NCBI RefSeq assembly: GCF_023213175.1
Contig: NZ_CP093312.1
Location: forward strand, 620,001-684,000
Length of the DNA stretch: 64,000 nucleotides
Source: Sulfurovum sp. XGS-02
GTDB taxonomy: Bacteria; Campylobacterota; Campylobacteria; Campylobacterales; Sulfurovaceae
Direction of reading: 5' to 3'
Under the pieces are notes generated by a model. That model was not told the origin of the DNA. It saw only the letters and a list, made by a program, of their open reading frames with translations, and ran no database searches. The position numbers and the translations under genes were made by a program. Positions 9,068 to 36,997 of the stretch are shown in pieces (position 1 is the stretch's first letter; each line of letters begins with the position of its first letter).

Positions 9068-10213
9068 ATGGATCATCATATCATCATTATAGGGGGAGGG
9101 GCAAGTGCACTGATGCTTGCATCTTTGCTCCCTAAAAATACGGCTACCATCATAGAGTCCAACCCCAAGCCGGGAGCGAAGATACTTGTCTCTGGCGGAG
9201 GTAAATGCAACATTACTAATAGCCGTATGGGAACAGAGTATTTCCTAGGTGATACTCACTTTGTACAGGAACCCTTAAAAAAATTCAATGAAAAAGCACT
9301 TTTAAGATGGCTGGAGAGACAAAATCTTCATCCTGTACTGAGGAAAGAGACACAGTATTTTTGTAAAGACTCAGCAAAAGAGTTATTGGATATTTTTTTA
9401 AAAGAGTGCAAGAAACAGACATTCTACACGTCCGAGAGAGTTCTGGAAGTCACAAAGCGAGATGATATCTTCTATGTCAAGACGAACAAAAAAACACATA
9501 CCGCTAAAGCAGTGGTAGTCGCTTCGGGTGGATTGAGTTTTCCTAGGATCGGTGCAAGCAGTATAGGGTACGAGATAGCAGAATCATTTGGACACAGCAT
9601 CGTGAGGACGGCACCTGCCCTGGTAGGATTTACTGTGCAAAAAGAGCAATTTTTTTTTAAAGAACTTTCCGGGGTTTCGACCGATGTGAAAATACATGTA
9701 GGAGATCATGTGTGTGAAGGCAGTATGCTTTTTGCTCACAAGGGATTGAGCGGCCCTGCGGTACTGGATGCTTCACTTTACTGGGAGAAGGGAAAGATCG
9801 AGATTGATTTTTTACCGTATTTTTCTTGGAAGAGCATACAGGGAAGCAAAAAACAGATCTCTTCACTTTTGCCTATGCCAAAGCGTGTTACCAAAGCATT
9901 TTTGCTACAATTCCGGGTAGAAGATAAACCTTTCCATCAACTTACAAAACAAGAACTGGAAATACTTCAAACGTTAAGTCATTACAGTTTTGCTCCTGCA
10001 GGAACCTTTGGTTATGCCAAGGCGGAGGTAACCAAGGGCGGTGTGGAGACATCTGAAGTGGACAGCAGTACCATGATGAGTAAGAAAGAGGAGGGGCTTT
10101 ACTTCATAGGTGAAGTCTTGGATGTAACAGGGAGACTTGGAGGTTACAATTTTCAGTGGGCATTTTCAAGTGCTTATAGTTGTGCCAAACATTTATCAAG
10201 AACATTATCGTAA
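9068..10213 (+). CDS. HI0933/YhiN-family FAD-dependent oxidoreductase
   Basis: This 381-aa protein has an N-terminal dinucleotide-binding fold (IIIGGGASALMLASLLP) and the family signature GAKILVSGGGKCNITN at about 37-52. A second FAD-contacting stretch is GGLSFPRIGASSIGY, and the C-terminus has FIGEVLDVTGRLGGYNFQWAFSSA. Members of this family bind FAD, but their substrates are mostly unknown. It appears to be a single-gene unit with its own promoter, and its stop codon is inside a perfect hairpin at 10201-10224. Confidence 0.88.
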   Translation: MDHHIIIIGGGASALMLASLLPKNTATIIESNPKPGAKILVSGGGKCNITNSRMGTEYFLGDTHFVQEPLKKFNEKALLRWLERQNLHPVLRKETQYFCKDSAKELLDIFLKECKKQTFYTSERVLEVTKRDDIFYVKTNKKTHTAKAVVVASGGLSFPRIGASSIGYEIAESFGHSIVRTAPALVGFTVQKEQFFFKELSGVSTDVKIHVGDHVCEGSMLFAHKGLSGPAVLDASLYWEKGKIEIDFLPYFSWKSIQGSKKQISSLLPMPKRVTKAFLLQFRVEDKPFHQLTKQELEILQTLSHYSFAPAGTFGYAKAEVTKGGVETSEVDSSTMMSKKEEGLYFIGEVLDVTGRLGGYNFQWAFSSAYSCAKHLSRTLS

Positions 10214-10224
10214 ACGATAATGTT
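10201..10224 (+). terminator. Perfect 10-bp hairpin overlapping the flavoprotein stop codon
   Basis: AACATTATCG (10201-10210) and CGATAATGTT (10215-10224) are exact complements around a TAAA loop that contains the stop codon. No T-run follows, so it may stabilise the 3' end or act as a weak terminator. Confidence 0.4.
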
Positions 10225-10269
10225 GTGAAGCAATGAATCCATAAGAGGCGTTGTACAATGATAATAGGA

Positions 10270-10287
10270 TTAACACAAATTTAACAC
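10270..10287 (+). promoter_or_regulatory. Tandem heptamer TTAACAC-N4-TTAACAC upstream of the L,D-transpeptidase
   Basis: Two exact TTAACAC copies (10270-10276 and 10281-10287) have the same spacing as the pair at 2175. An AT-rich -10-like region follows (TATTAT at 10299). The two sites suggest a shared direct-repeat regulator for two envelope genes. Confidence 0.55.
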
Positions 10288-10333
10288 GATTATTGCATAT
10301 TATTTTTTGAATTTAAATGTTAGGGGATTTAAA

Positions 10334-11593
10334 ATGAAAAAAATTATGATGTTGATATTTTCGGGAGTATCAGCGATTGTATTGAGTGGATGTGGTGTGG
10401 AGACACCGGATGCAGAGGGTTGGAGACCAGCTCAAAAAGAGGAGTTCTTAGAGATACTGGAAACAGACAAATATGCTTCCATCTGTAATCAGCAGGCACT
10501 TTATGAAAAGGTCAAAGAGAGTGAAAACTCCAAACTGATGTCCAAGTTACTTGTGTCGTATGCCAAGAACCTTGCCAATGGGTGTATAGATCTGGAAAGT
10601 TTCAATGCATCTCAAGAGAAAAGAGTAGAGCAGAAGGTCGCGACCTACTATGAAACCTATTTGCAAGAAGTGAAAGCATCGGACATCATGAGGCAACTCA
10701 AAGCAGGACAGAGTATAGAAGCCATATTAAAACCTTATGTACCTGAGTATGCGCAATTTTTTGATCTTCAAAAAAGATATAGACTTTTAGGAGGTGACAA
10801 AAACACTTCCAAAAAGACACTGCGTAAAATTCGACTTAACCTAGAAAGATTGAAACTGATGAAGCCGGGTCTCGGAGACAATTATGCTCTCGTCAATATA
10901 CCTGAGTATACGGTTCGTGTGATCGATGCTAACGGTACAGCAATGGCAATGGCGGTTGTAGTGGGTCAGAGAAAAATGCAAACACCTGTCTTTTCTGCAG
11001 ATCTCTCTTATGTAACACTGAATCCTCAATGGGGTGTCCCTGACAGTATCGCTAGAAACGAAGTGATTCCCAAACTCTTAGAAGATCCAAACTATTTGGT
11101 AAGCCACAATATGGTTATACGTAAATCCTATGATTTGAATACGCCGGAAGTAAGTCAGGATTCTGTAGATTGGGAAGCCTATCTGTTAGAGGAAAAGGAC
11201 AAAGAAGAGATGACCTATAAGTTTATAGAAGTACCTTCAAAGAAGAACGGTTTGGGTCGTGTCAAGTTCATCTTCCCGAACAAACACTCTGTTTATATGC
11301 ATGATACACAGTCAAAACATCTCTTTAAGCGTAAAGTACGTACCTACAGTCATGGATGTGTAAGACTCGAGAAACCGATGGCAATGTTAGAACATATTTC
11401 AAAGAACTATACTGAGAAAACTTCGGAGGAGGTCAAAGAGTGGTATGACTCTTTGGAAACGCACCATATGGGTCTGGTCAAGAAGTTGCCTGTACATACG
11501 GCATACTTGACAACGTATGTGGATGAGTGCGGGAAGCTGTTGGTATTTAACGATATTTATGGCTTTGACAAGTCACAAAAACTTAACTTCTAA
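10334..11593 (+). CDS. L,D-transpeptidase (YkuD family) lipoprotein
   Basis: The start at 10334 (419 aa) is chosen because it follows AGGGGATTTAAA and begins a clear lipoprotein signal, MKKIMMLIFSGVSAIVLSGC (lipobox LSGC). An upstream in-frame ATG at 10307 would add nine polar residues. The C-terminal YkuD domain has the catalytic motif SHGCVR at 339-344, with the expected upstream HDTQSKHLF. These enzymes crosslink or trim peptidoglycan stems. The N-terminal region is the scaffold type seen in LdtD/YcbB-like proteins. A tandem heptamer upstream may regulate it. Confidence 0.93.
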   Translation: MKKIMMLIFSGVSAIVLSGCGVETPDAEGWRPAQKEEFLEILETDKYASICNQQALYEKVKESENSKLMSKLLVSYAKNLANGCIDLESFNASQEKRVEQKVATYYETYLQEVKASDIMRQLKAGQSIEAILKPYVPEYAQFFDLQKRYRLLGGDKNTSKKTLRKIRLNLERLKLMKPGLGDNYALVNIPEYTVRVIDANGTAMAMAVVVGQRKMQTPVFSADLSYVTLNPQWGVPDSIARNEVIPKLLEDPNYLVSHNMVIRKSYDLNTPEVSQDSVDWEAYLLEEKDKEEMTYKFIEVPSKKNGLGRVKFIFPNKHSVYMHDTQSKHLFKRKVRTYSHGCVRLEKPMAMLEHISKNYTEKTSEEVKEWYDSLETHHMGLVKKLPVHTAYLTTYVDECGKLLVFNDIYGFDKSQKLNF

Positions 11594-11779
11594 AAATGCA
11601 GGGTATGGCTGAATTTAGCCGATATCCTCTTTCAAAACAACCTACCATGTAAAAATAAATTAAAATTCCATACAGCATAGATAGACTGAATGAGATTTTA
11701 ATTTATAAATATTTATCATACTCTATTTGTATTTTTTATTTTAATAATTTAAGTTTTTGTGATACAATTTAGAAATGGG

Positions 11780-11823
11780 CTAGAGGTGTGAATGAGATTC
11801 GACTCTAGATTCGTATCTCATTC
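11780..11823 (+). promoter_or_regulatory. Two interlocking hairpins in the leader of the 149-aa gene
   Basis: CTAGAG (11780-11785) can pair with CTCTAG (11803-11808). GAATGAGAT (11790-11798) can pair with ATCTCATTC (11815-11823). The stems interleave, so they form either a pseudoknot or two alternative structures, as in attenuators. The rest of the gap 11594-11885 shows only AT-rich sequence. A regulatory role is inference. Confidence 0.35.
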
Positions 11824-11885
11824 ATAGTAAAACTTGATGCTGATCACTAACAATGATAAGCGAGATAATTCTAGGAGAAATAATC

Positions 11886-12335
11886 ATGGAAAAAGTATAT
11901 CAAGAGAAACTGGAAGAAATTGTATTACTTCTGAATGATCCAGATGAAACTGTACTGATAAAAGAAGTGAAAGAGAAACTAGAAAACCTTCTAGCACTTG
12001 TAAAGAATCCAGAAAAAATTGAAAAAGAAAAAATAGAAAATAACAAAAAACTGGAAAAAGTGGTAGAATGTGTGCATAATGCAATGGCCAACCCGGACAT
12101 TGAGCTTGAATATTGTATACCTGAAGAAACAACCACAACAGACCCTTATGGTGTCGCTAACGATCCTTATATACACGTGAAGTATGCGTCTGGCGGGACA
12201 CATATCATGAACCAAAATGTACGTATTGGACCTATGTATCTATCAAAGACACCGGAAGATATAGCAAACCTTGTTACCTTCCATATCAAACAGTTCATTG
12301 AAGAGATCGATGCTACTGAGTATGGTGTACAATAA
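11886..12335 (+). CDS. Conserved-looking cytosolic protein of unknown function (149 aa)
   Basis: I do not recognise this protein. The start at 11886 is preferred over 11853 because AGGAGAAATAATC stands directly before it. Residues 1-60 are a charged, helical, coiled-coil-like region (KLEEIVLLLNDPDETVLIKEVKEKLENLL and a run of K and E). The C-terminal half is more globular (PEETTTTDPYGVANDPYIHVKYASGGTHI). No signal peptide or membrane helix is seen. It appears monocistronic, with a structured leader upstream and a perfect palindrome downstream. Confidence 0.6.
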   Translation: MEKVYQEKLEEIVLLLNDPDETVLIKEVKEKLENLLALVKNPEKIEKEKIENNKKLEKVVECVHNAMANPDIELEYCIPEETTTTDPYGVANDPYIHVKYASGGTHIMNQNVRIGPMYLSKTPEDIANLVTFHIKQFIEEIDATEYGVQ

Positions 12336-12353
12336 GCCTTTATCATAGAGTGC

Positions 12354-12375
12354 AGACTATAGATATCTATAGTCT
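12354..12375. repeat. Perfect 22-bp palindrome between two genes
   Basis: AGACTATAGAT at 12354-12364 is followed directly by its exact reverse complement to 12375. A pyrimidine-rich tail (ATCTCTTTAA) follows, so it could be a terminator hairpin for the 149-aa gene or a dimeric regulator site. Farther on, TTTGTAAC (12461) and GTTACAAA (12488) form another inverted pair. Nothing else is seen in 12336-12602. Confidence 0.5.
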
Positions 12376-12602
12376 ATCTCTTTAATACATACAGTCTCAA
12401 TGATAAGACTCCTCAAGATAAAAGTATGCAATTAAACACTTCGCTAAAACACCATTAAAATTTGTAACATAACATCTAAAGAGATTTGTTACAAACAACC
12501 TATTCTCATCAGTTCTCCTCAGCATAAACGATATTAAGGTGCATTTAACATGAATATAATTAGAATCCATAAAAGATTAAAATTCATAGAAAGAGGATTA
12601 TT

Positions 12603-24858: not shown

Positions 24859-26988
24859 ATGGGAAAATTAAAAGAGTTAAAGTTTCCAACTATACAGTTA
24901 GATGAAAGAAACGATAATAGACGTATCCATTTTGATTATGTAGATGATCTATATGCCAAAAAACATTATGGAGAATACATTATCGTAAAACATTCTGAAG
25001 CAGAGAATATTTCTACATCAAGAGTTTATCTCTCAAATGATGCCCAAGTTGAATATTATTTAGGTAGAAAAAAACGTGGTGATAAACTATTCAATTGTGT
25101 ACCTGCAGTAGGTAAAGTTAATCTTTTTGATCTGTTTCCTCAATATAAAACCTTTATCAAAAGTACAATATCTTACATAATACAAGATAGACAACATTCT
25201 TCTACAGTTATGCATTATTTAATTGGTTTTAATATCTTTTTATCAGCATTGAAATCTCATGACATTGTGATAAACGAATTTAAAGAAATTACAAATGAGC
25301 ACCATGCTTTAACCTACAATTATATAAAAGTAACTGAAGGTACAAACAACTACACCATGAGGAATGTACGCAGTTTTTTTGGTGTGGTAGAACTAAATTT
25401 AGAGCATTTTATTACAACTCGTATACCTCGTTTGGGAATAGACAATTCTATTTTAGCTCTTTCATCAACTGTATCATTTCAGATTTCTTATTTTTCAGAA
25501 GTAGAGATATCAAAAATTATTAAACGAGTAAATGAATATAAAGAGTGGATGAAAGAATATGAGAATATAGAATTATTTAGTTTAAAAAATTTAGCAAAAA
25601 CATACTATGAATCACAAGGAAGTACCGAGAAAAGGCCTTTTGGTGTAACTGTTAATAGTATTTGTATTGATTTACATGGTATTAATCTAAAGTATTGGAT
25701 ACGTAGATCTAGACGAGAATATGTATATAAAAACTTATATCAAAAAAAAATGCATGAAGAGATGCTAGAGTACTGCAAAGATGGAACAAATATTGACGTT
25801 GTCGATGAAAAAATGTATGCATTTTGGCATAAAGAAATTTATCCTGATTGGCCTTTTACTAGAACTTTAGCAAAAAAATTTGACTCATCACAAATAAAAT
25901 ATTTTAGATATAGATATGCAGAAAAATTAGGGATAGATCTAAATAATTTTGATTCTCGTATTTATCCATCAGGAGCTGAAATTTATCCTCTTATTTTATT
26001 ACTATTGATATGGGAAGGAATGAATACAGAAGTTTTAAAAAATTGGAGAGTGAAAAAAAATAAGAAAGGCGAATTCAAAATTGGAAATGAGACAAGTATA
26101 GGTTTATTGATTGAAAGTACGAAAGCACGATCTAACTCAATTCAAGCAAATGTTCTTAGTAATTCGTCTAATTTTAAAAAGTATATTGATTTTTATTTGA
26201 AATGGCTTACACCTATTTATGAAAATTCTGGAAAAGATAATTTTTTTCAGTATATCTATCTGAAAGATAAAGAAGAGCCTCTAAGAATATGGAAGAGCAG
26301 TGCATTTTTTAATAATCTGAAACATTCAAAAGACTCTTTATTCGCTAAATATGAGATTTTAGAAACAAGCGGTACTAAAGTTCAGTATATTGACCATAGA
26401 CGGATAAGACCATATACAAACTATAGAGATGCCATGGCAGATTATAGTGAATTTAAAAGGCAAATGAAAAAGGGGCATGAAAATATAGATACCCTAAAAC
26501 ATTATGAAAATTCAAAAGAATGGATAGGAGATAAGAAACATAGGATCGCAAGAACACAGAATTTAATAGTGAAAATCCTAAGAGATGATGAAGATAAATA
26601 TGAAGAAAAAATTCAAAACTTATTTAATGGTCCATTAGCAGATTGTGAAGATCCTAAAAAACCAGACCATCCAGATGCTTTAACTCTTAAAAAGAATGAA
26701 ATTTGTAGTGATTGGTTTAAGTGTTTAACAATGTGTGGGAAAGCTAATGTTGTTCCCAAAGTACATGGCCCAGTAATTTATGCTTGGATTTTATATATGG
26801 AAGAAGAATATGAAAATTATTTTAGTTATGCAGACTGGGAGAAAGAATATTCAATGGATTATATGGCAGCAGTAAATACTTTTGGAGGGTTTACATTTCA
26901 TGAAAAGAATTATTCTGAAGAAAATGCATATAAGCATGAAGAGTTTGTAAAAAGAAAATTTAAACGTAAAATGAAAATAAGAGCTTGA
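24859..26988 (+). CDS. Tyrosine-recombinase-like protein with degenerate catalytic residues (709 aa)
   Basis: This 709-aa protein looks like an enlarged tyrosine recombinase. The C-terminal region has DHRRIRP at about 512-518 in the place of the usual H-x-L-R motif, then GHENIDTLKHYEN at 539-551 with a candidate tyrosine at 549. The first catalytic arginine motif is missing: EGMNTEVLKNWRVKK occupies its usual place, with N for R. The rest is unusually long, with DNA-binding-like basic patches. It may be a regulatory or structural subunit rather than a nuclease. It starts a tight operon, with three bases to the next gene. Confidence 0.72.
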   Translation: MGKLKELKFPTIQLDERNDNRRIHFDYVDDLYAKKHYGEYIIVKHSEAENISTSRVYLSNDAQVEYYLGRKKRGDKLFNCVPAVGKVNLFDLFPQYKTFIKSTISYIIQDRQHSSTVMHYLIGFNIFLSALKSHDIVINEFKEITNEHHALTYNYIKVTEGTNNYTMRNVRSFFGVVELNLEHFITTRIPRLGIDNSILALSSTVSFQISYFSEVEISKIIKRVNEYKEWMKEYENIELFSLKNLAKTYYESQGSTEKRPFGVTVNSICIDLHGINLKYWIRRSRREYVYKNLYQKKMHEEMLEYCKDGTNIDVVDEKMYAFWHKEIYPDWPFTRTLAKKFDSSQIKYFRYRYAEKLGIDLNNFDSRIYPSGAEIYPLILLLLIWEGMNTEVLKNWRVKKNKKGEFKIGNETSIGLLIESTKARSNSIQANVLSNSSNFKKYIDFYLKWLTPIYENSGKDNFFQYIYLKDKEEPLRIWKSSAFFNNLKHSKDSLFAKYEILETSGTKVQYIDHRRIRPYTNYRDAMADYSEFKRQMKKGHENIDTLKHYENSKEWIGDKKHRIARTQNLIVKILRDDEDKYEEKIQNLFNGPLADCEDPKKPDHPDALTLKKNEICSDWFKCLTMCGKANVVPKVHGPVIYAWILYMEEEYENYFSYADWEKEYSMDYMAAVNTFGGFTFHEKNYSEENAYKHEEFVKRKFKRKMKIRA

Positions 26989-26991
26989 TGA

Positions 26992-28908
26992 ATGAAACAT
27001 ATAAAAAAATATCTTAATCAATTAAAGAGTTGTCTTACAGAAGAAGAGGTTTGGGATTTGATGAAAGGTCGAGTTTTTCCTGGGTCAGACAATTCAAGAT
27101 TTGAAGAAGATATGATACAGTTGCCCACAAGTACAGGATACTATAGTGGTGTATCTATTAATGTGGATAATAAACTTTTAGATTTGGCTTGTAGGGTAAT
27201 CCTTTTTTTGAAGTTGGACGGGGAAATATCAAATCTACCAAGAAATTCGGGGAAGAAAACTTATGCATCACATATAAGATATTTTTTGAGTAATATGTCT
27301 GATCTACACAACAATATACTGAGTTTAGATGATCTTAACGGGAATGACATGGATTTTCTGATTAATCAGCATAAAAATAACTCAAAAGAACTTGTATCCA
27401 CAACTTTATGTGCAAAATTGGGTAGGCTTGAAGAATGGATTATATTTGCAAATCATAAATTACCATTGTTTTTACAGTTAAATGAAACTCTTTTTTTAAA
27501 CTCGAAGCATTATATGGAATTCTATGAACAGTGTAGACAAAGAAAACGTGAAACTGCTATGATAGGTGGTCCGAAAGAACCATACCCACTTAATAAGCTT
27601 AAATATCTTGTTAAGGAAGCAATGCTATATCTTGAAGAATACTCCCAAGACTGTTTATATGCTGCAAAAATATATATAGAAACAAAAAGTTTTAAAAGTC
27701 TGTCTGAAAAATATAATCATGTATTAAATTATTTCAAAACAGTAGCACATAAGTTTACCGAACCTGCTCTTTTGGGGCTTCAAAAAAAATGTCAGGAAAG
27801 CGATAGTGCATTTATAGATGTAAATGGAAAGCAACAAAGAAGTGTTAGAATGGGTGATGGTTTAGTCGAGGAGTGCATCAGTGCTGCAAAAAGACTAGAA
27901 GGTGCTTGTGTCACTATTATTCTAATGCTGACTGCAATGCGCAGACAAGAATTAGCCCGTTTAGAACGTCATCCAGTAATTGAGGAAGGTGAATATCTAA
28001 ATTTTAAAAGATTTATTTACAAAACTGCGCATACTGAAAATGGTGATTTACTTGAAATCCCTATTCCTCCAATTGTCCAAAGTGCCCTAGAATCATTATC
28101 ACGAATTTCAGAAATAAAAGACGGTAAGACAACTGGTCCAATTATAGTCAGTGATTTTAGATTTAGTGAAGGTTGTAATGATAATAGGGTACAAGCTTCC
28201 ATAAGATATTTTTCTAAATCTATCAACTTAGAGAATCCTCCTACACCACATCAGTTAAGACATGCAATGGCTTTTTTGGTTGCTTTCTTAAATGAAAAGG
28301 ATGGTTTAGAGTTGGCCAGATTACTATTAGGTCATGACACAATTCTGATGACTCTTTGGTACATGGGGCACTATAGTCCACTGATTAAAGAAGTGGTTTC
28401 CGAACAATTGATCAAAAAGTCAAAACAACTTGTTGATGTTATTGGGAAAGAGCTTAATTCAGGTAAATTACTGTTTGGACCAAAGGGAAAATTGATAATG
28501 GAGAATTATGAATTTTCGGGTAGTTATGTAGAAGAATTTTCCAGTATCTTATCCGAAACCATGATCACTCTGATAGAAAAAGGACAGGCTGTTCTTATAC
28601 AAAACCCAATTTGTTTCTGTTTTCATGATATGTCAAAAGGAACTGAAATGTCTTGTCAACGCGGGCTTGGAATGTCAGATTTAACAGGTGCTCTTCCATT
28701 ACCCTCAAGATGTAATGGCTATGATTGCGAAAGTGCCATCTTTACAGAAGAATATATCCAAAGATTAGATAATACAATGATAGATTCAGAATTGGAAAAA
28801 AGACTTTTGGGAAATACCTATTTTGTTGACTTTGGTGGTTTTGATGCAATTGATCCATCTAGAAGTATTGTGAATGATTATATTATGACAAAACAAAGGA
28901 TGGGTTAG
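26992..28908 (+). CDS. Tyrosine recombinase, active-type residues (638 aa)
   Basis: This 638-aa protein has a complete C-terminal catalytic set: R317 in LTAMRRQELARL, H420-Q-L-R423 in TPHQLRHAM, G447-H448, and a nucleophile candidate Y457 (LLGHDTILMTLWYMGH). The length and position resemble TnpB of Tn554, which is about 630 aa. A cysteine-rich C-terminal segment (CFCFHDMSKGTEMSC, then RCNGYDCES) may bind metal. This should be the catalytic partner that moves the island. Confidence 0.85.
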   Translation: MKHIKKYLNQLKSCLTEEEVWDLMKGRVFPGSDNSRFEEDMIQLPTSTGYYSGVSINVDNKLLDLACRVILFLKLDGEISNLPRNSGKKTYASHIRYFLSNMSDLHNNILSLDDLNGNDMDFLINQHKNNSKELVSTTLCAKLGRLEEWIIFANHKLPLFLQLNETLFLNSKHYMEFYEQCRQRKRETAMIGGPKEPYPLNKLKYLVKEAMLYLEEYSQDCLYAAKIYIETKSFKSLSEKYNHVLNYFKTVAHKFTEPALLGLQKKCQESDSAFIDVNGKQQRSVRMGDGLVEECISAAKRLEGACVTIILMLTAMRRQELARLERHPVIEEGEYLNFKRFIYKTAHTENGDLLEIPIPPIVQSALESLSRISEIKDGKTTGPIIVSDFRFSEGCNDNRVQASIRYFSKSINLENPPTPHQLRHAMAFLVAFLNEKDGLELARLLLGHDTILMTLWYMGHYSPLIKEVVSEQLIKKSKQLVDVIGKELNSGKLLFGPKGKLIMENYEFSGSYVEEFSSILSETMITLIEKGQAVLIQNPICFCFHDMSKGTEMSCQRGLGMSDLTGALPLPSRCNGYDCESAIFTEEYIQRLDNTMIDSELEKRLLGNTYFVDFGGFDAIDPSRSIVNDYIMTKQRMG

Positions 28909-28912
28909 GTAA

Positions 28913-29371
28913 ATGGCTGCATTGTCAGAAGAAGAAAAGTCTTTAAAAGTAAGATTGAGTTGGGAAGCTTTTTATGAACTGTGTGATCAATCAGTTCTTG
29001 AAAATTATGTAACTCCTAAAAAGATTGCTAGTGCGGTCAACTCGTCAGAGTATGCAAAAAGTTTTGAGACACAACTTCATTACAATTCATTAAAGCAGCC
29101 AGGTTCAACAGAGTTTAAAAAGCTAAAAAAAGCAATTGATGATTTTAGGGTTGAGTTTAAAAAAAGAAAACTACTTGTTGATAAAAAAATAAAAGAAGAA
29201 ATTGCTAATTTGAATGAACAAATTGATAACCTAACAATACAAAATACACAGCTGATTCACCTGAAGAGAGAGTCAGAAAATGAAAAGAATGAGACTAGTA
29301 AATCTTTAGATAAATATAAAAAAGAAAATAAAGAGCTTCGAGATCAAATTGTTCAGTTGAGAAAAAAATAA
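28913..29371 (+). CDS. Small coiled-coil accessory protein (TnpC/GmtX-like by position)
   Basis: This 152-aa protein has a globular N-terminus (about 1-75, KVRLSWEAFYELCDQSVLENYVTPKKIASAV). Residues 80-152 are a long coiled coil (EEIANLNEQIDNLTIQNTQLIHLKRESENEK). It lies between the second and third recombinases and overlaps the third start by one base (TAATG). Tn554 has a small third protein, TnpC, that helps orient recombination, and Gamma-Mobile-Trio islands have a small third protein. Equivalence is inferred from position and size only. Confidence 0.65.
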   Translation: MAALSEEEKSLKVRLSWEAFYELCDQSVLENYVTPKKIASAVNSSEYAKSFETQLHYNSLKQPGSTEFKKLKKAIDDFRVEFKKRKLLVDKKIKEEIANLNEQIDNLTIQNTQLIHLKRESENEKNETSKSLDKYKKENKELRDQIVQLRKK

Positions 29372-30756
29372 TGACTATTACTTATAAGACATATCCTCAT
29401 CCTGATTCAGATATAAAAAGAAATCTTACTGTTATTTTTGTGAATAATAAACTTGATATTCCATCTACTGAATTTTTATTGAATGAGGTGAGGCATGGAG
29501 GAAGGTGTGGTGGAGTTGCAGCCGAGTCTGTTCACAGGGATAAAGCAATTAAAATCGGTGAAATGTATAGACATCTTCATTCTATAGGAAAAGATTGGAG
29601 AAGTGCATTTGAAATTGATTTTATAAGGATTAGAAATGCAATGTTGTGTTGGGATGCTAATGACAATAAAGCATATGATGACTATGAATATAAACATATA
29701 AGCAACAATGCGATGAATAGTAAAATCAACATATGGTACAAGTTTTATAAATATATGGAAAATATTGATGAGCCATTTGATTTAGTGATGACAACTAAAA
29801 AAGTAAAAGTTAAAAAAAGACATGGTGGGGTGCTGAAACATTTAGATGATGAGTATGAAATAATAGAGATCTGGACGATTAAAGTTAAACCTGATCCAGA
29901 AAAATATGTCTATCATGCTCTTCCTAGGTTTGATTATCATCATTTTGAAAAAGAATTAGAGAAAATTGATATCGTATATGCGATGATTGCACATTTTATG
30001 GTTGAAACTGGATTGCGAATAAAACCAACAGTAAAAGTAAGAGAAGATAGTTTTAGAAATTATTTAATTGATATTAATAAGGGTAAATCAATTGACGAAA
30101 AAAGATCTCACCTACAAGATAACTTTAGAAAAATGAGTTACGTGGCCAAAGGTGGTTTAGTGAAAAATTGTGATCTCCCAATAAGAACTATAATTAATAT
30201 AAAAGAAAAATACCTTTCACGTGTTTATCCTATTCGAAAAAAATTACATAGTGATAAGTATAGTGATCGTCCTGAAAAGCTTGATGAAAATGCAATGTGG
30301 ATACTTGAAAATGGGCGAATAGTAAATGAAGGTGATATTAGAAGGGCATTTAAACAAGCTTCAGAAGTAATTGGGTACACAGTTGAAGTTATTACTCCCC
30401 ATTGGCTAAGACATACGTTTGCAACTTGGATACTAATAGATTACTTTCAAAAGATGGAAATTCCCTTTACAGGTACAGGGGTAACCCCAGATGTTATGGC
30501 TATGGGAATATTGGCAGAAAAGCTCGGTCAGGTAAATCCTGAAACAGCTCTAATATATACAAGAACAGCCTTTAAAATGATGGTCGGTATGACAAGTAAA
30601 GGACCTATTATGTCTTTTAGGAATTTCAGCAAAGATAAAAGGGCTCAAGAAATTGTTGAATGCCTAGCAAGAGATGAATTTGGTAAAGATTTTGATACTG
30701 AAATATTTGATGTCTTCAAATATGCAGAATCTAAAGGTATAGTGGTAGACTATTAA
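29371..30756 (+). CDS. Third tyrosine recombinase (461 aa)
   Basis: This 461-aa protein has R216 in VETGLRIKPTV, the box H344-W-L-R-H348 in TPHWLRHTFA, G386-Q387 where most members have G-H, and Y396 (ETALIYTRTAF) as nucleophile. The motif spacing is regular, so it is probably active. The N-terminal 200 residues form a core-binding region. It ends the four-gene recombination operon, 28 bp before the thioredoxin-like gene, which probably belongs to the same transcript. Confidence 0.85.
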   Translation: MTITYKTYPHPDSDIKRNLTVIFVNNKLDIPSTEFLLNEVRHGGRCGGVAAESVHRDKAIKIGEMYRHLHSIGKDWRSAFEIDFIRIRNAMLCWDANDNKAYDDYEYKHISNNAMNSKINIWYKFYKYMENIDEPFDLVMTTKKVKVKKRHGGVLKHLDDEYEIIEIWTIKVKPDPEKYVYHALPRFDYHHFEKELEKIDIVYAMIAHFMVETGLRIKPTVKVREDSFRNYLIDINKGKSIDEKRSHLQDNFRKMSYVAKGGLVKNCDLPIRTIINIKEKYLSRVYPIRKKLHSDKYSDRPEKLDENAMWILENGRIVNEGDIRRAFKQASEVIGYTVEVITPHWLRHTFATWILIDYFQKMEIPFTGTGVTPDVMAMGILAEKLGQVNPETALIYTRTAFKMMVGMTSKGPIMSFRNFSKDKRAQEIVECLARDEFGKDFDTEIFDVFKYAESKGIVVDY

Positions 30757-32944: not shown

Positions 32945-34200
32945 GTGTCCGTGAAGGGTATAAAAATACTGAGCTTGGCGAGATTCCAGATAATTGGGAA
33001 ATAGTTACTTTGGAATCTGTACTTGAAAGGTTTCAAAATGGTTGTGCTTTTTCTTCAGAAGGTTATGTTGAAAGTGGCATTCCTATAGTGTCAATGGCAA
33101 ATATTTCTTTAAAGGGAATATTCCAATACGACTATACAAAAGCAAAATATTGGAATGAGTCTGAACTAGATAGGTTAACACAATATCAACTGAAAAAAGG
33201 TTCATTATTAATAGCTATGACAGATGTCACTCCTGATAAAAATTTAATTGGACGCATGGCTGTTATAGATATTGACGATCTGTTTCTTTTAAATCAACGA
33301 GTTGGCTTATTGCAAACAAAACCAAATATAAATCGAAAGTTTTTATCTGAATATGGAAATTTTTCAATCTGGAGAAAATATTGTAAAAATGTAGCTGCTT
33401 CAGGTGCTCAAGCAAATATTTCTACAAAAGATATTAAAAATGGACTAATCCCAGTTCCTCCTCTCAAGGAACAGCAAAAAATTGCTGATATCCTAAGTAC
33501 TGTTGATCAAAAAATTAATTTGATTAATACTAAGATTAAAGAGGCTGAAATCTTGAAAAAAGGGCTTATGCAGAAGCTTTTGTCAGAAGGAATCGGGCAT
33601 ATTAAGTTTAAGGAAAGTGAGATTGGGCAGGTCCCTATTGAGTGGGAAGTATTGGCATTAAGTGAATTTGCTAAGATCAATATGGGACAATCTCCAGTTT
33701 CGAAATTTGTAAATGAAGAAGGTGAAGGCATCCCTTTTGCACAAGGTAATTCTGAATTTACACAAAAATACTTCACGCACACAAGCAAATATTGTATACA
33801 GCCAAAAAAGGTGGCACAACAAGGAGATATCCTTTTTAGTGTTCGTGCACCAGTGGGTGACATTAACATTGCAGCGTTTGATATATGTATAGGGCGGGGT
33901 TTAGCTAGTTTAAGAGCAAAAAATAATGAGCAAGAATATCTCTATCAACTTCTGATGAAATTGGCTCAAAGATTGAATCAATCTGCTCAAGGAAGTACAT
34001 TCACAGCAATCAATAAATCAGATCTTGAAAAGCTAAAAATTGCTGTCCCACCTCTTGAAGAGCAAAAGAGAATTGCAGACATTCTTTTTACAGCCGATAA
34101 AAAAATTGAAACACTTCGAACAAAAAAAGAATTATTTGGAGCACTAAAGAAAGGACTTGTACAAAAACTTATAACAGGCGAAGTGAGGGTAAATAGTTAA
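32941..34200 (+). CDS. hsdS: Type I restriction-modification specificity subunit HsdS
   Basis: This 419-aa protein has two target-recognition domains, beginning KNTELGEIPDNWEIVTL and ESEIGQVPIEWEVLALS. They are separated by a conserved coiled coil (PPLKEQQKIADILSTVDQKI) and end with a second one (PPLEEQKRIADILFTADKKI). That is the standard bipartite type I arrangement. The recognised sequence is not predictable. Start overlaps hsdM by four bases (ATGA); its end overlaps the SIR2-like gene by one (TAATG). Confidence 0.96.
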   Translation: MSVREGYKNTELGEIPDNWEIVTLESVLERFQNGCAFSSEGYVESGIPIVSMANISLKGIFQYDYTKAKYWNESELDRLTQYQLKKGSLLIAMTDVTPDKNLIGRMAVIDIDDLFLLNQRVGLLQTKPNINRKFLSEYGNFSIWRKYCKNVAASGAQANISTKDIKNGLIPVPPLKEQQKIADILSTVDQKINLINTKIKEAEILKKGLMQKLLSEGIGHIKFKESEIGQVPIEWEVLALSEFAKINMGQSPVSKFVNEEGEGIPFAQGNSEFTQKYFTHTSKYCIQPKKVAQQGDILFSVRAPVGDINIAAFDICIGRGLASLRAKNNEQEYLYQLLMKLAQRLNQSAQGSTFTAINKSDLEKLKIAVPPLEEQKRIADILFTADKKIETLRTKKELFGALKKGLVQKLITGEVRVNS

Positions 34201-35240
34201 TGGCTTCTTTACCTGCGACAAATGGGAAAAATGTAATTGCGCCGCACACTGTCATCTTGGGAGCTGGAGCAAGTATTGCAATGACAAGATTAAATGCAGA
34301 AAAATTTGGAAAAGAATTGCCTTCTATGGATAATTTAGTAGAAAAGGTTGGACTTGCTCCACTACTTGATAAGAATGGTATTGATTATTATGGCAAAAAC
34401 TTTGAGTCACTTTTTTCGGAGATTAAAGAAGATCTTTCAAAAGAGGAAATTGCACAACAAATTGAAAAACAAATTTATGACTATTTTGCAAATATGGAAA
34501 TTTCTGATGAACTTACAATTTATGATTATTTAGTCATGTCTTTAAGCAATAATGATGCGATCGCTACATTTAATTGGGATCCTTTTCTGATTCAAGCATT
34601 AGCCCGTTGCAGTAGGTTTACTCATAATTTACCTAGAGTAATTCATTTACACGGAAATACGGGTCTTGGCGTATGCTATGATGACAGTGTAGTTGGACAT
34701 ATAAATGCATTATGTAGTACTTGTAAAAACCCTTTTGAACCTACTAAACTACTGTACCCTATAGGGAAAAAAGACTATACATCTGATCCATTGATTAAAA
34801 ATGAATGGGAGATATTAAAAGCCTATATAGAAGAATCTTTTTATATAACAATTTTTGGATATAGCGCTCCTGTTTCTGATATTGAAGCAAAAACCTTATT
34901 ATTAGAGGTTTGGGAAAAAAATGCTTCAAAAGGACTTGCACAAATTGAGATAGTTGATATTAAGTCTAAAGAAGATCTTTATGAAACATGGCAAGATTTT
35001 ATAGTACGTGACCACTATTATGTTTCGAATAATATATTTGATAGTTATTTATTTCGATATCCTAGACGGTCATGCGCAGCTTTTTTTGAAATGGTGGGAA
35101 TGCTAAGACCAAAAAAACCAAATCCATTTCCAAAATTAATGACTGTTGAAGAACTTTATCATTGGGCCAAACCATTAATTGATGAAGAAGAAAGTGGTGT
35201 TAAGTATAGTTTTAATGTTTTAAAAGGGGAGACAAAATGA
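34200..35240 (+). CDS. SIR2-like NADase-type protein, embedded in the restriction operon
   Basis: This 346-aa protein shows the SIR2 nucleotide-binding start VILGAGASIA (GAGAS at 21-25), FNWDP near 124, HLHGN at 149-153 (candidate catalytic histidine) and FGYSAPVSD, as in defence SIR2 domains that break down NAD+. It has no classical deacetylase zinc set; only one CxxC pair (CSTC) is visible. Both junctions overlap neighbours, so it is translated with hsdS and the ATPase gene. Together with the next gene it is likely an abortive-infection-type module. The trigger is unknown. Confidence 0.8.
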   Translation: MASLPATNGKNVIAPHTVILGAGASIAMTRLNAEKFGKELPSMDNLVEKVGLAPLLDKNGIDYYGKNFESLFSEIKEDLSKEEIAQQIEKQIYDYFANMEISDELTIYDYLVMSLSNNDAIATFNWDPFLIQALARCSRFTHNLPRVIHLHGNTGLGVCYDDSVVGHINALCSTCKNPFEPTKLLYPIGKKDYTSDPLIKNEWEILKAYIEESFYITIFGYSAPVSDIEAKTLLLEVWEKNASKGLAQIEIVDIKSKEDLYETWQDFIVRDHYYVSNNIFDSYLFRYPRRSCAAFFEMVGMLRPKKPNPFPKLMTVEELYHWAKPLIDEEESGVKYSFNVLKGETK

Positions 35241-36997
35241 TTAAAATCAAGAAGGTTCATATAAAGCGATTCCGATCAATAATGGATTTAAAAATAGAAA
35301 TTGATCAAAATAATAATTTCATTACAATATGTGGTGAAAATAATTCAGGTAAAACAAATACATTAAGAGCAATGAATATTTTTTTTAATCCTGAACAGTA
35401 TGATTATGAAAAAGATACACCATTCCATAAGCTTGAAGGTTCTCAAGGCGGTAAAGTATTCCCAAATATTGTTATTGAATTTTCTGACGATTCGAAGGTT
35501 TATAAAATAGAACGAAACTTTGAAAAGGATCAATATAAACTAAGTGGTCAAAAAATTGAAAGTGGAAGTAGTGAGGAACTTACAGAAAAACAGTGCATAG
35601 CTATCTTAAATAAAATTCACTTTTTTTATATTGAATCAATAAATGTTTCGTATCCAAAATTAATTAATAATTTGATTGATACTGTTTTTGAAGTTGCTTT
35701 TGCAAAATCAAGATTTTCTGGTGGGAAAAAAGCATTGAAGACAGCATATGAAGCATATACTAAAGGGCTTTTAGAAGTTTTACAGAACCTTTCTAAAGAT
35801 ATAAACCCGTTATTCCAAGAATATAAAGAAAACTGGGAAGTTGAATTTGACTTAGACAGTGATATTAAAAAGTTCAGAGATATTATTACAGATGATATAG
35901 AATTTTTCATTAATGATAGTTCAAATAAACATATAGACTCTAAAGGTTCTGGATTACAAAGGTTGGCTTATATTTTATTGCATTTTAAAATTATTGAGAA
36001 GTTGAAGAAAAATACAATTTTAGTGATTGATGAACCTGACATATTTTTGCATCAGTCTTTACAGAAAACACTACATAAGCATATGCAACAGGTTAAAAGC
36101 TCTGCCCAAATATTTATTACAACACATTCCCCTGTTTTTATAGATAGTTACACATTAAATAATGTCTTTTTGCTTGACCTAGAAATAACAGAAAAATATT
36201 ATCAACGTCGTAAAAGAACATACAATGAATTAAAAACAAAACTTGTTAATATTTCTGGAGTTAACGGTGATCATAAAATTAAAGAGTATCTTGGTATAGA
36301 TAATAAGGATTTTGAAGTTTTACGTAATTACAACATTCTTGTTGAAGGTGAAAGTGATTTGATTTATCTTAGTGAGCTTGGTAAATATTTCGGTATGGAA
36401 GTCCCAAATATTATACCTTTGGGTGGAGTAGATAATGCAACAAGAGAACTCAGCTTTTATAATAATTTTTATCATGACACAGGAGTTAAACCAAAAGTTG
36501 TTTTACTAGTAGATAATGATCGAGCTGGTAGAGATGTTTTTGATAAAGTTGTAAAAAATAAATCAAAAAGTCATTATAATAATCTTGATTTGAAAATTGA
36601 GTTGTTGCCTAATGTACTAGGTGAGAATACTAAAGAAAGTGCAAAAAATAATGAAGTGGAAGATTTTGTATACCCGGAAATTATTGTTGAGTTGGTTAAT
36701 AAGGTTTTAGCAAAAAAATCGTTGAGAAAGATCATACCTGCGAGAATAGAGACAAAAATTTCTCAAGCAGCATTTAAAAATAGTGGAATATTAACACTTG
36801 TCGAAAACGAAAAAAATGAAAGAAACCCTGAAGATGGAGGTTCAATTAATATTGCATCAGAAAGTGTTAAAAATAGTATGTCAAAGTTTTTTAAGATTGA
36901 AGGTAATACAAGACTTATAAAACTTCTTGAAGTAAATGATCAAAAATTTCCAGAAGTTAGGTCTTATCTTTATAAACTCTTTGAAGGTAACTTATGA
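35237..36997 (+). CDS. OLD-family protein: AAA ATPase plus TOPRIM nuclease domain
   Basis: This 586-aa protein has an N-terminal ABC/SMC-like ATPase: Walker A GENNSGKT at 33-40, signature-like GSGLQR, and Walker B LVIDEPDIFLH (D265-E266). It is followed by a TOPRIM domain with VEGESD (369-374) and VDNDRAGRD (D426, D428). That arrangement is typical of OLD nucleases such as GajA. The gene overlaps both the SIR2-like gene and hsdR by four bases. It may sense or cut DNA while the SIR2 partner depletes NAD+. There is no UvrD-like partner, so it is not a Gabija pair. Confidence 0.87.
   Translation: MIKIKKVHIKRFRSIMDLKIEIDQNNNFITICGENNSGKTNTLRAMNIFFNPEQYDYEKDTPFHKLEGSQGGKVFPNIVIEFSDDSKVYKIERNFEKDQYKLSGQKIESGSSEELTEKQCIAILNKIHFFYIESINVSYPKLINNLIDTVFEVAFAKSRFSGGKKALKTAYEAYTKGLLEVLQNLSKDINPLFQEYKENWEVEFDLDSDIKKFRDIITDDIEFFINDSSNKHIDSKGSGLQRLAYILLHFKIIEKLKKNTILVIDEPDIFLHQSLQKTLHKHMQQVKSSAQIFITTHSPVFIDSYTLNNVFLLDLEITEKYYQRRKRTYNELKTKLVNISGVNGDHKIKEYLGIDNKDFEVLRNYNILVEGESDLIYLSELGKYFGMEVPNIIPLGGVDNATRELSFYNNFYHDTGVKPKVVLLVDNDRAGRDVFDKVVKNKSKSHYNNLDLKIELLPNVLGENTKESAKNNEVEDFVYPEIIVELVNKVLAKKSLRKIIPARIETKISQAAFKNSGILTLVENEKNERNPEDGGSINIASESVKNSMSKFFKIEGNTRLIKLLEVNDQKFPEVRSYLYKLFEGNL

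Follow-up and report, generated by a model that had tools for sequence, protein, structure and literature searches.

What are a gene for a SIR2-like protein and a gene for an OLD-like ATPase doing between hsdS and hsdR of a type I restriction operon, and do they act there as a unit? The question is raised by a 64,000-nucleotide stretch of DNA from Sulfurovum sp. XGS-02 (contig NZ_CP093312.1, positions 620,001 to 684,000; hereafter the window, to which gene coordinates refer). An earlier, sequence-only reading of this DNA took the two genes for a two-gene suicide module that backs up restriction. Our analysis points elsewhere: the hsdS–hsdR junction is a cargo slot that is occupied by differing genes in related operons, and in the window it probably holds two independent defence genes, stacked side by side and translationally coupled to the operon. 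What stands of the earlier reading is a probable SIR2 NADase and an OLD ATPase/TOPRIM protein within a type I operon, most likely as defence cargo; the specific two-gene module is not supported.

The genes of the operon follow one another in the order hsdM-hsdS-SIR2-OLD-hsdR-YgjP (Table 1), and the five junctions overlap in turn by 4, 1, 4, 4 and 4 bases, with the letters TAATG at the hsdS/SIR2 junction and ATGA at the remaining four. The earlier description, which placed SIR2 and OLD between hsdS and hsdR with overlaps of 1–4 bases, is thus accurate, the overlaps being 1 or 4 bases at every junction. Purine-rich stretches resembling Shine-Dalgarno sequences lie 5′ of the SIR2, OLD and hsdR starts, and a scan for promoters and terminators gave no excess over shuffled sequences. 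The hsdR gene is the only HSDR_N gene of this 2.19-Mb genome.

In the window the slot between hsdS and hsdR is 2.8 kb long. It is exactly at this place that four related hsd operons of the phylum differ, their HsdR proteins being 81, 75, 62 and 60% identical to that of the window. The slot holds 237 bp with only a 71-codon open reading frame in locus L100, a Schlafen-AlbA_2 protein gene in L101, DUF3800, XRE/IrrE and other small genes in L102, and a RelE-type toxin with a small partner in L103, where a PemK-like gene also sits between hsdM and hsdS. Further afield, a relative of the SIR2 gene stands alone between hsdS and hsdR in L070 (Phycisphaerales, Planctomycetota), with ATGA overlaps on both sides, and another stands alone between hsdR and the YgjP gene in L063 (Flavisolibacter). 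In the SIR2 tree L063 falls in a separate Bacteroidota clade, and L070 does not belong to the 16-row set that includes the window copy; these different positions suggest more than one capture. The YgjP gene, which the earlier account left out, is a recurrent hsd companion that repeatedly comes last in such operons; it is found behind hsdR in L070 and L100–L103 and behind SIR2 in L063. An in-frame TAA stop interrupts the hsdR gene of L101 (L101:1422-4415), so that this operon may be without active restriction; its methyltransferase is intact.

The company that the two cargo genes keep elsewhere speaks for their independence. The SIR2 family comprises 256 loci in GTDB contigs (one genome per species), of which the best 80, spanning many phyla, were fetched; neighbours were counted at 88 loci, and the genome searches reported here are samples. 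No co-directional neighbour of at least 100 residues lies within 120 bp of SIR2 at 41 of the 88, although some of these contigs end nearby. Where neighbours are present they vary, and include HEPN_LA2681 (in streptococci), a HerA-like ATPase, Mrr-type nucleases, Schlafen-AlbA_2, a second SIR2-like gene and a type IIG enzyme; hsd genes are absent from the fetched stretch in most relatives. In the source phylum the SIR2 and OLD families are each found in 2 of 397 genomes, and both together only in the window's genome. The pair was not found again when SIR2 was searched in these 397 genomes and 78 of the genus, and OLD in the 397 and 388 genomes of another phylum, nor did any of 12 SIR2-bearing genomes contain a match to the window OLD protein; because of these results we reject a SIR2–OLD two-gene system as the main explanation. 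The search for adjacent homologues that the sequence-only reading itself proposed therefore found the pair in the window's genome and in no other sampled, close to the outcome which that reading had said would count against it, namely that the two genes occur together only here.

Relatives of the OLD protein likewise occur without SIR2. One that is 41% identical (G124) lies behind an Eco57I-like type IIG enzyme, and another, about 30% identical, is a lone gene in a Vibrio tailless-phage genome; a lone copy is also found in a viral contig. No relatives were found on plasmids at E 1e-20. In L092:6066-11587 an Eco57I-like type IIG restriction enzyme is followed directly, after a gap of 2 bp, by an OLD gene of the window's subfamily, which may therefore be a companion of restriction systems in general.

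The SIR2 relatives of six streptococcal loci (L036, L042, L052, L054, L055 and L073, around 10001-12500) overlap by 20 bases a partner gene of one family, identified in L036 as TPR plus HEPN_LA2681, and form with it a conserved two-gene pair. In Sulfuricurvum (L023:5876-12691) a type IIG enzyme, a gene of 317 codons without assignment, a SIR2 relative and Schlafen-AlbA_2 stand in one run, which is a second stack of cargo linked to restriction-modification (R-M). On a Pseudoalteromonas plasmid (L003:8992-11252) another SIR2-like gene, with a SIR2_2 domain, comes after a SIR2 relative, apparently beside transposase genes. An Enterococcus faecalis multiresistance plasmid (L006:9001-9294) has a fragment of a gene of the SIR2 family between its resistance genes spw and apmA.

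Identification of the first cargo protein depends on structure and conservation, since neither it nor its relatives gave a meaningful model match in Pfam, PADLOC or NCBIfam, and a PDB sequence search with a profile of 65 relatives gave none. The motifs LGAGAS, ATFNWD and HLHGN are present, as are the Walker A/B and TOPRIM motifs of the second cargo protein that the earlier reading had also quoted. Residues N125, D127 and H151, together with residues in the glycine-rich loop, do not vary among 62 relatives, which come from many phyla, so that the motifs are more than chance. An AlphaFold2 model built from 62 sequences (predicted local distance difference test, pLDDT, 86.7; predicted template modelling score, pTM, 0.87) has as its top Foldseek match the SIR2 protein of SIR2/HerA (E 1.9e-8). 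In VIA-align comparisons, where Z differences under 1 count as ties, the model scores Z 15.4 against this same protein (8wld; 4.1 Å over 247 residues), 14.0 against KomBC and ThsA, about 13–14 against DSR2 and 12–13 against sirtuin deacetylases. As modelled, the SIR2 Rossmann fold of this protein matches those of defence SIR2 NADases. In ThsA and DSR2 it is residues of this kind that cleave NAD+ and, by analogy with their roles there, the window protein is probably an NADase. It shares the fold and the catalytic Asn and His with the SIR2 of SIR2-HerA (NezHa), KomC, ThsA and DSR2; it differs from them in belonging to a family that the three libraries do not recognise, and in lacking an adjoining HerA or KomB gene and a fused extra sensor domain. 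An identity as AbiH was considered and rejected, as PF14253 is matched by only 2 of the 65 relatives (best E 1.2e-5) and not by the window protein.

The second cargo protein consists of an N-terminal ABC ATPase and a C-terminal TOPRIM domain whose Pfam match is weak and below the cut-off, and it carries the motifs LVEGESD and VDNDRAGRD. Closer relatives keep Walker A, the SKGSG signature, the Walker B DEP, the THS H-loop and the TOPRIM E/DxD; since the ATPase and TOPRIM residues are kept in this way, these motifs too are more than chance. E370, D426 and D428 are present in all four aligned proteins. In both cargo proteins, then, the catalytic motifs are intact; a lack of conservation at these residues was among the outcomes that the sequence-only reading had named as counting against it. 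PADLOC matches are to the AriA, Old and GajA models and to the retron I-B ATPase-Toprim, while PDB relatives comprise GajA, an OLD nuclease, PtuA, AriA and retron ATPases. The AlphaFold2 model built for it from four sequences had low confidence (pLDDT 55) and was not used. On its sequence, the protein is most likely an OLD ATPase/TOPRIM protein and a putative nuclease, with the ABC ATPase followed by TOPRIM in a single chain as in other OLD-family nucleases (P2 Old, GajA, the retron I-B/Eco8 effectors and AriA of PARIS).

Membership of several named systems was considered for this protein and rejected. For Gabija, no UvrD-like GajB helicase adjoins OLD, the neighbours of which are SIR2 and hsdR. 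For a type I-B/Eco8 retron, the adjoining genes are hsd genes and SIR2, and there is no reverse transcriptase domain in the upstream integrases or in a 709-residue protein encoded with them; non-coding RNA was not searched for. The fused TOPRIM sets the protein apart from PARIS, where AriB is separate, and there is no DUF4435 match. It is not a PrrC-type anticodon nuclease, as it carries TOPRIM and has no Pfam match of the PrrC/RloC type (AAA_13).

Table 1. Genes of the type I operon and of the region upstream, in window coordinates.
Feature	Position	Strand	Evidence
Four co-directional upstream genes	24859-30756		
Two tyrosine-recombinase genes within these	26992-30756		Phage_integrase
hsdM, type I N6-adenine methyltransferase, 518 residues	31388-32944	+	N6_Mtase 1.5e-101, HsdM_N; TIGR00497 above cut-off
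hsdS, specificity subunit, 419 residues	32941-34200	+	Methylase_S 3.6e-54 in two stretches, i.e. two target-recognition domains
SIR2-fold probable NADase, 346 residues; slot cargo 1	34200-35240	+	AlphaFold2 model, fold matches, invariant residues
OLD-like ABC ATPase and TOPRIM, 586 residues; slot cargo 2	35237-36997	+	AAA_15 7e-27, AAA_21; weak Toprim_2 and OLD-like_TOPRIM
hsdR, type I restriction/translocase subunit, 995 residues	36994-39981	+	SWI2_SNF2 1.6e-76, HSDR_N 1.4e-40, TIGR00348
YgjP/M48-like metallopeptidase gene, 232 residues	39978-40676	+	YgjP-like 2e-52

Defence genes between hsdS and hsdR are already known and are not in themselves new. In enteropathogenic Escherichia coli (EPEC), DarTG2 lies at this position, and the site has been called a potential recombination hotspot (PMC12255303). 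That operon resembles the one in the window in having foreign defence genes between hsdS and hsdR and an M48-type gene nearby, but there an ADP-ribosyltransferase toxin-antitoxin pair controlled by RptR forms the cargo, whereas in the window SIR2 and OLD fill the slot and no gene resembling RptR was seen. PrrC is linked to a type IC hsd system; it is silenced by EcoprrI and activated by the T4 phage peptide Stp (PMC2610378). The rlo genes are inserts in the hsd loci of Campylobacter jejuni, and RloC relatives, though related to PrrC, are rarely linked to R-M systems (PMC2610378). In these cases, as in the window, a probable suicide effector or ATPase is encoded within a type I hsd locus, but PrrC and RloC are anticodon nucleases composed of an ABC-ATPase and HEPN, and neither cargo protein of the window is one. 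HEPN genes embedded in R-M operons, those of epsilonproteobacteria included, were described in 2013 (PMC3710099). A literature search, which did not cover preprints, found no paper that names either SIR2 or OLD as cargo of the hsdS–hsdR slot; this agrees with the earlier statement that no system with this exact pair in this position is known, but the slot itself is already published (PrrC, rlo, DarTG2).

From sequence we infer a defence function for the SIR2 and OLD proteins, the triggers to which they respond and their independence of one another in the cell. With two independent defence genes in the slot, restriction would form the first line of defence and the cargo the second. The SIR2-fold enzyme, standing alone, would most likely sense infection and hydrolyse NAD+, leading to abortive infection, while the single-chain OLD ABC ATPase/TOPRIM nuclease would most likely cut DNA once its ATPase domain is switched on. 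By analogy, PrrC may be taken as a precedent for cargo that backs up restriction when this is blocked.

The PrrC case also prompts a closer coupling, in which the HsdRMS complex keeps one or both cargo proteins inactive and a phage that blocks or alters restriction releases them, resulting in NAD+ loss or DNA cutting. The silencing of PrrC by EcoprrI and its activation by Stp are the model for such a guard, the overlaps at every junction in the window favour co-translation, and other SIR2 copies are coupled to hsd genes in L070 and L063. Most SIR2 relatives, however, have no hsd genes in the fetched stretch, so the family needs no Hsd proteins in cis; the unrelated kinds of cargo in related operons argue against a dedicated Hsd interface, and the rarity of R-M linkage among RloC relatives points the same way. 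We regard this arrangement as rather unlikely. A narrower version, in which the SIR2 family is a single-gene abortive-infection NADase that is silenced by the restriction complex in type I operons (the window, L070 and L063) and fires when phages block restriction, is distinctly unlikely; if true, this would make it the first NADase to guard a restriction enzyme.

An obligate two-gene system, in which a DNA-sensing OLD ATPase switches on the SIR2 NADase or the reverse, would have parallels in SIR2-HerA and KomB-KomC, and the SIR2 fold is indeed closest to the SIR2 of SIR2/HerA and to KomC. The two genes are adjacent with a 4-base overlap, and just one further locus among those examined, L007 in Halomonas, has a SIR2–OLD neighbourhood, in which a SIR2 relative lies 106 bp before an OLD-like gene of another subfamily (about 18% identity). 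Against this, SIR2 is alone or has other partners at nearly all loci, OLD relatives occur without SIR2, and the window's pair was not found again in the sampled genomes, so an obligate pair seems unlikely. In 221 genomes of the Halomonas family there is no second SIR2 copy and so no second SIR2–OLD neighbourhood. It is highly improbable that SIR2 and OLD are decaying or neutral passengers of a mobile element: two Phage_integrase genes do lie directly upstream of the hsd operon, and the G+C content at third codon positions (GC3) is low in the cargo (SIR2 0.19, OLD 0.18) against hsdM (0.32) and hsdR (0.31), but neither reading frame is broken, the catalytic residues are conserved from phylum to phylum and starts and stops are precisely coupled. 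Some points weigh against two independent genes stacked in the slot as the preferred explanation. The Halomonas neighbourhood hints weakly at pairing; the low GC3 of the cargo, which also counts for this explanation, is weak evidence, because hsdS (0.23) comes close to the same value; and the evidence on SIR2 neighbourhoods comes from 80 of the 256 loci and from sampled genomes.

The SIR2 family, absent from the catalogues, widespread and often stand-alone, is the new element here and the most interesting part. It is intact, spans many phyla and recurs in restriction operons and phage contigs; no relatives were found in named phages. Scans that rely on Pfam, NCBIfam or the PADLOC defence library miss it, since none of these includes it. 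The related operons, for their part, show how a single slot has naturally exchanged its cargo, and could serve to ask if cargo embedded in this way is dependent on the restriction enzyme, like PrrC, or does no more than share a promoter with it.

Upstream of the hsd operon lie four co-directional genes that encode the 709-residue protein, which has no family assignment, two Phage_integrase proteins of 638 and 461 residues and, from a gene between these two, a protein of 152 residues. This run looks like a multi-recombinase mobile element adjoining the defence operon.

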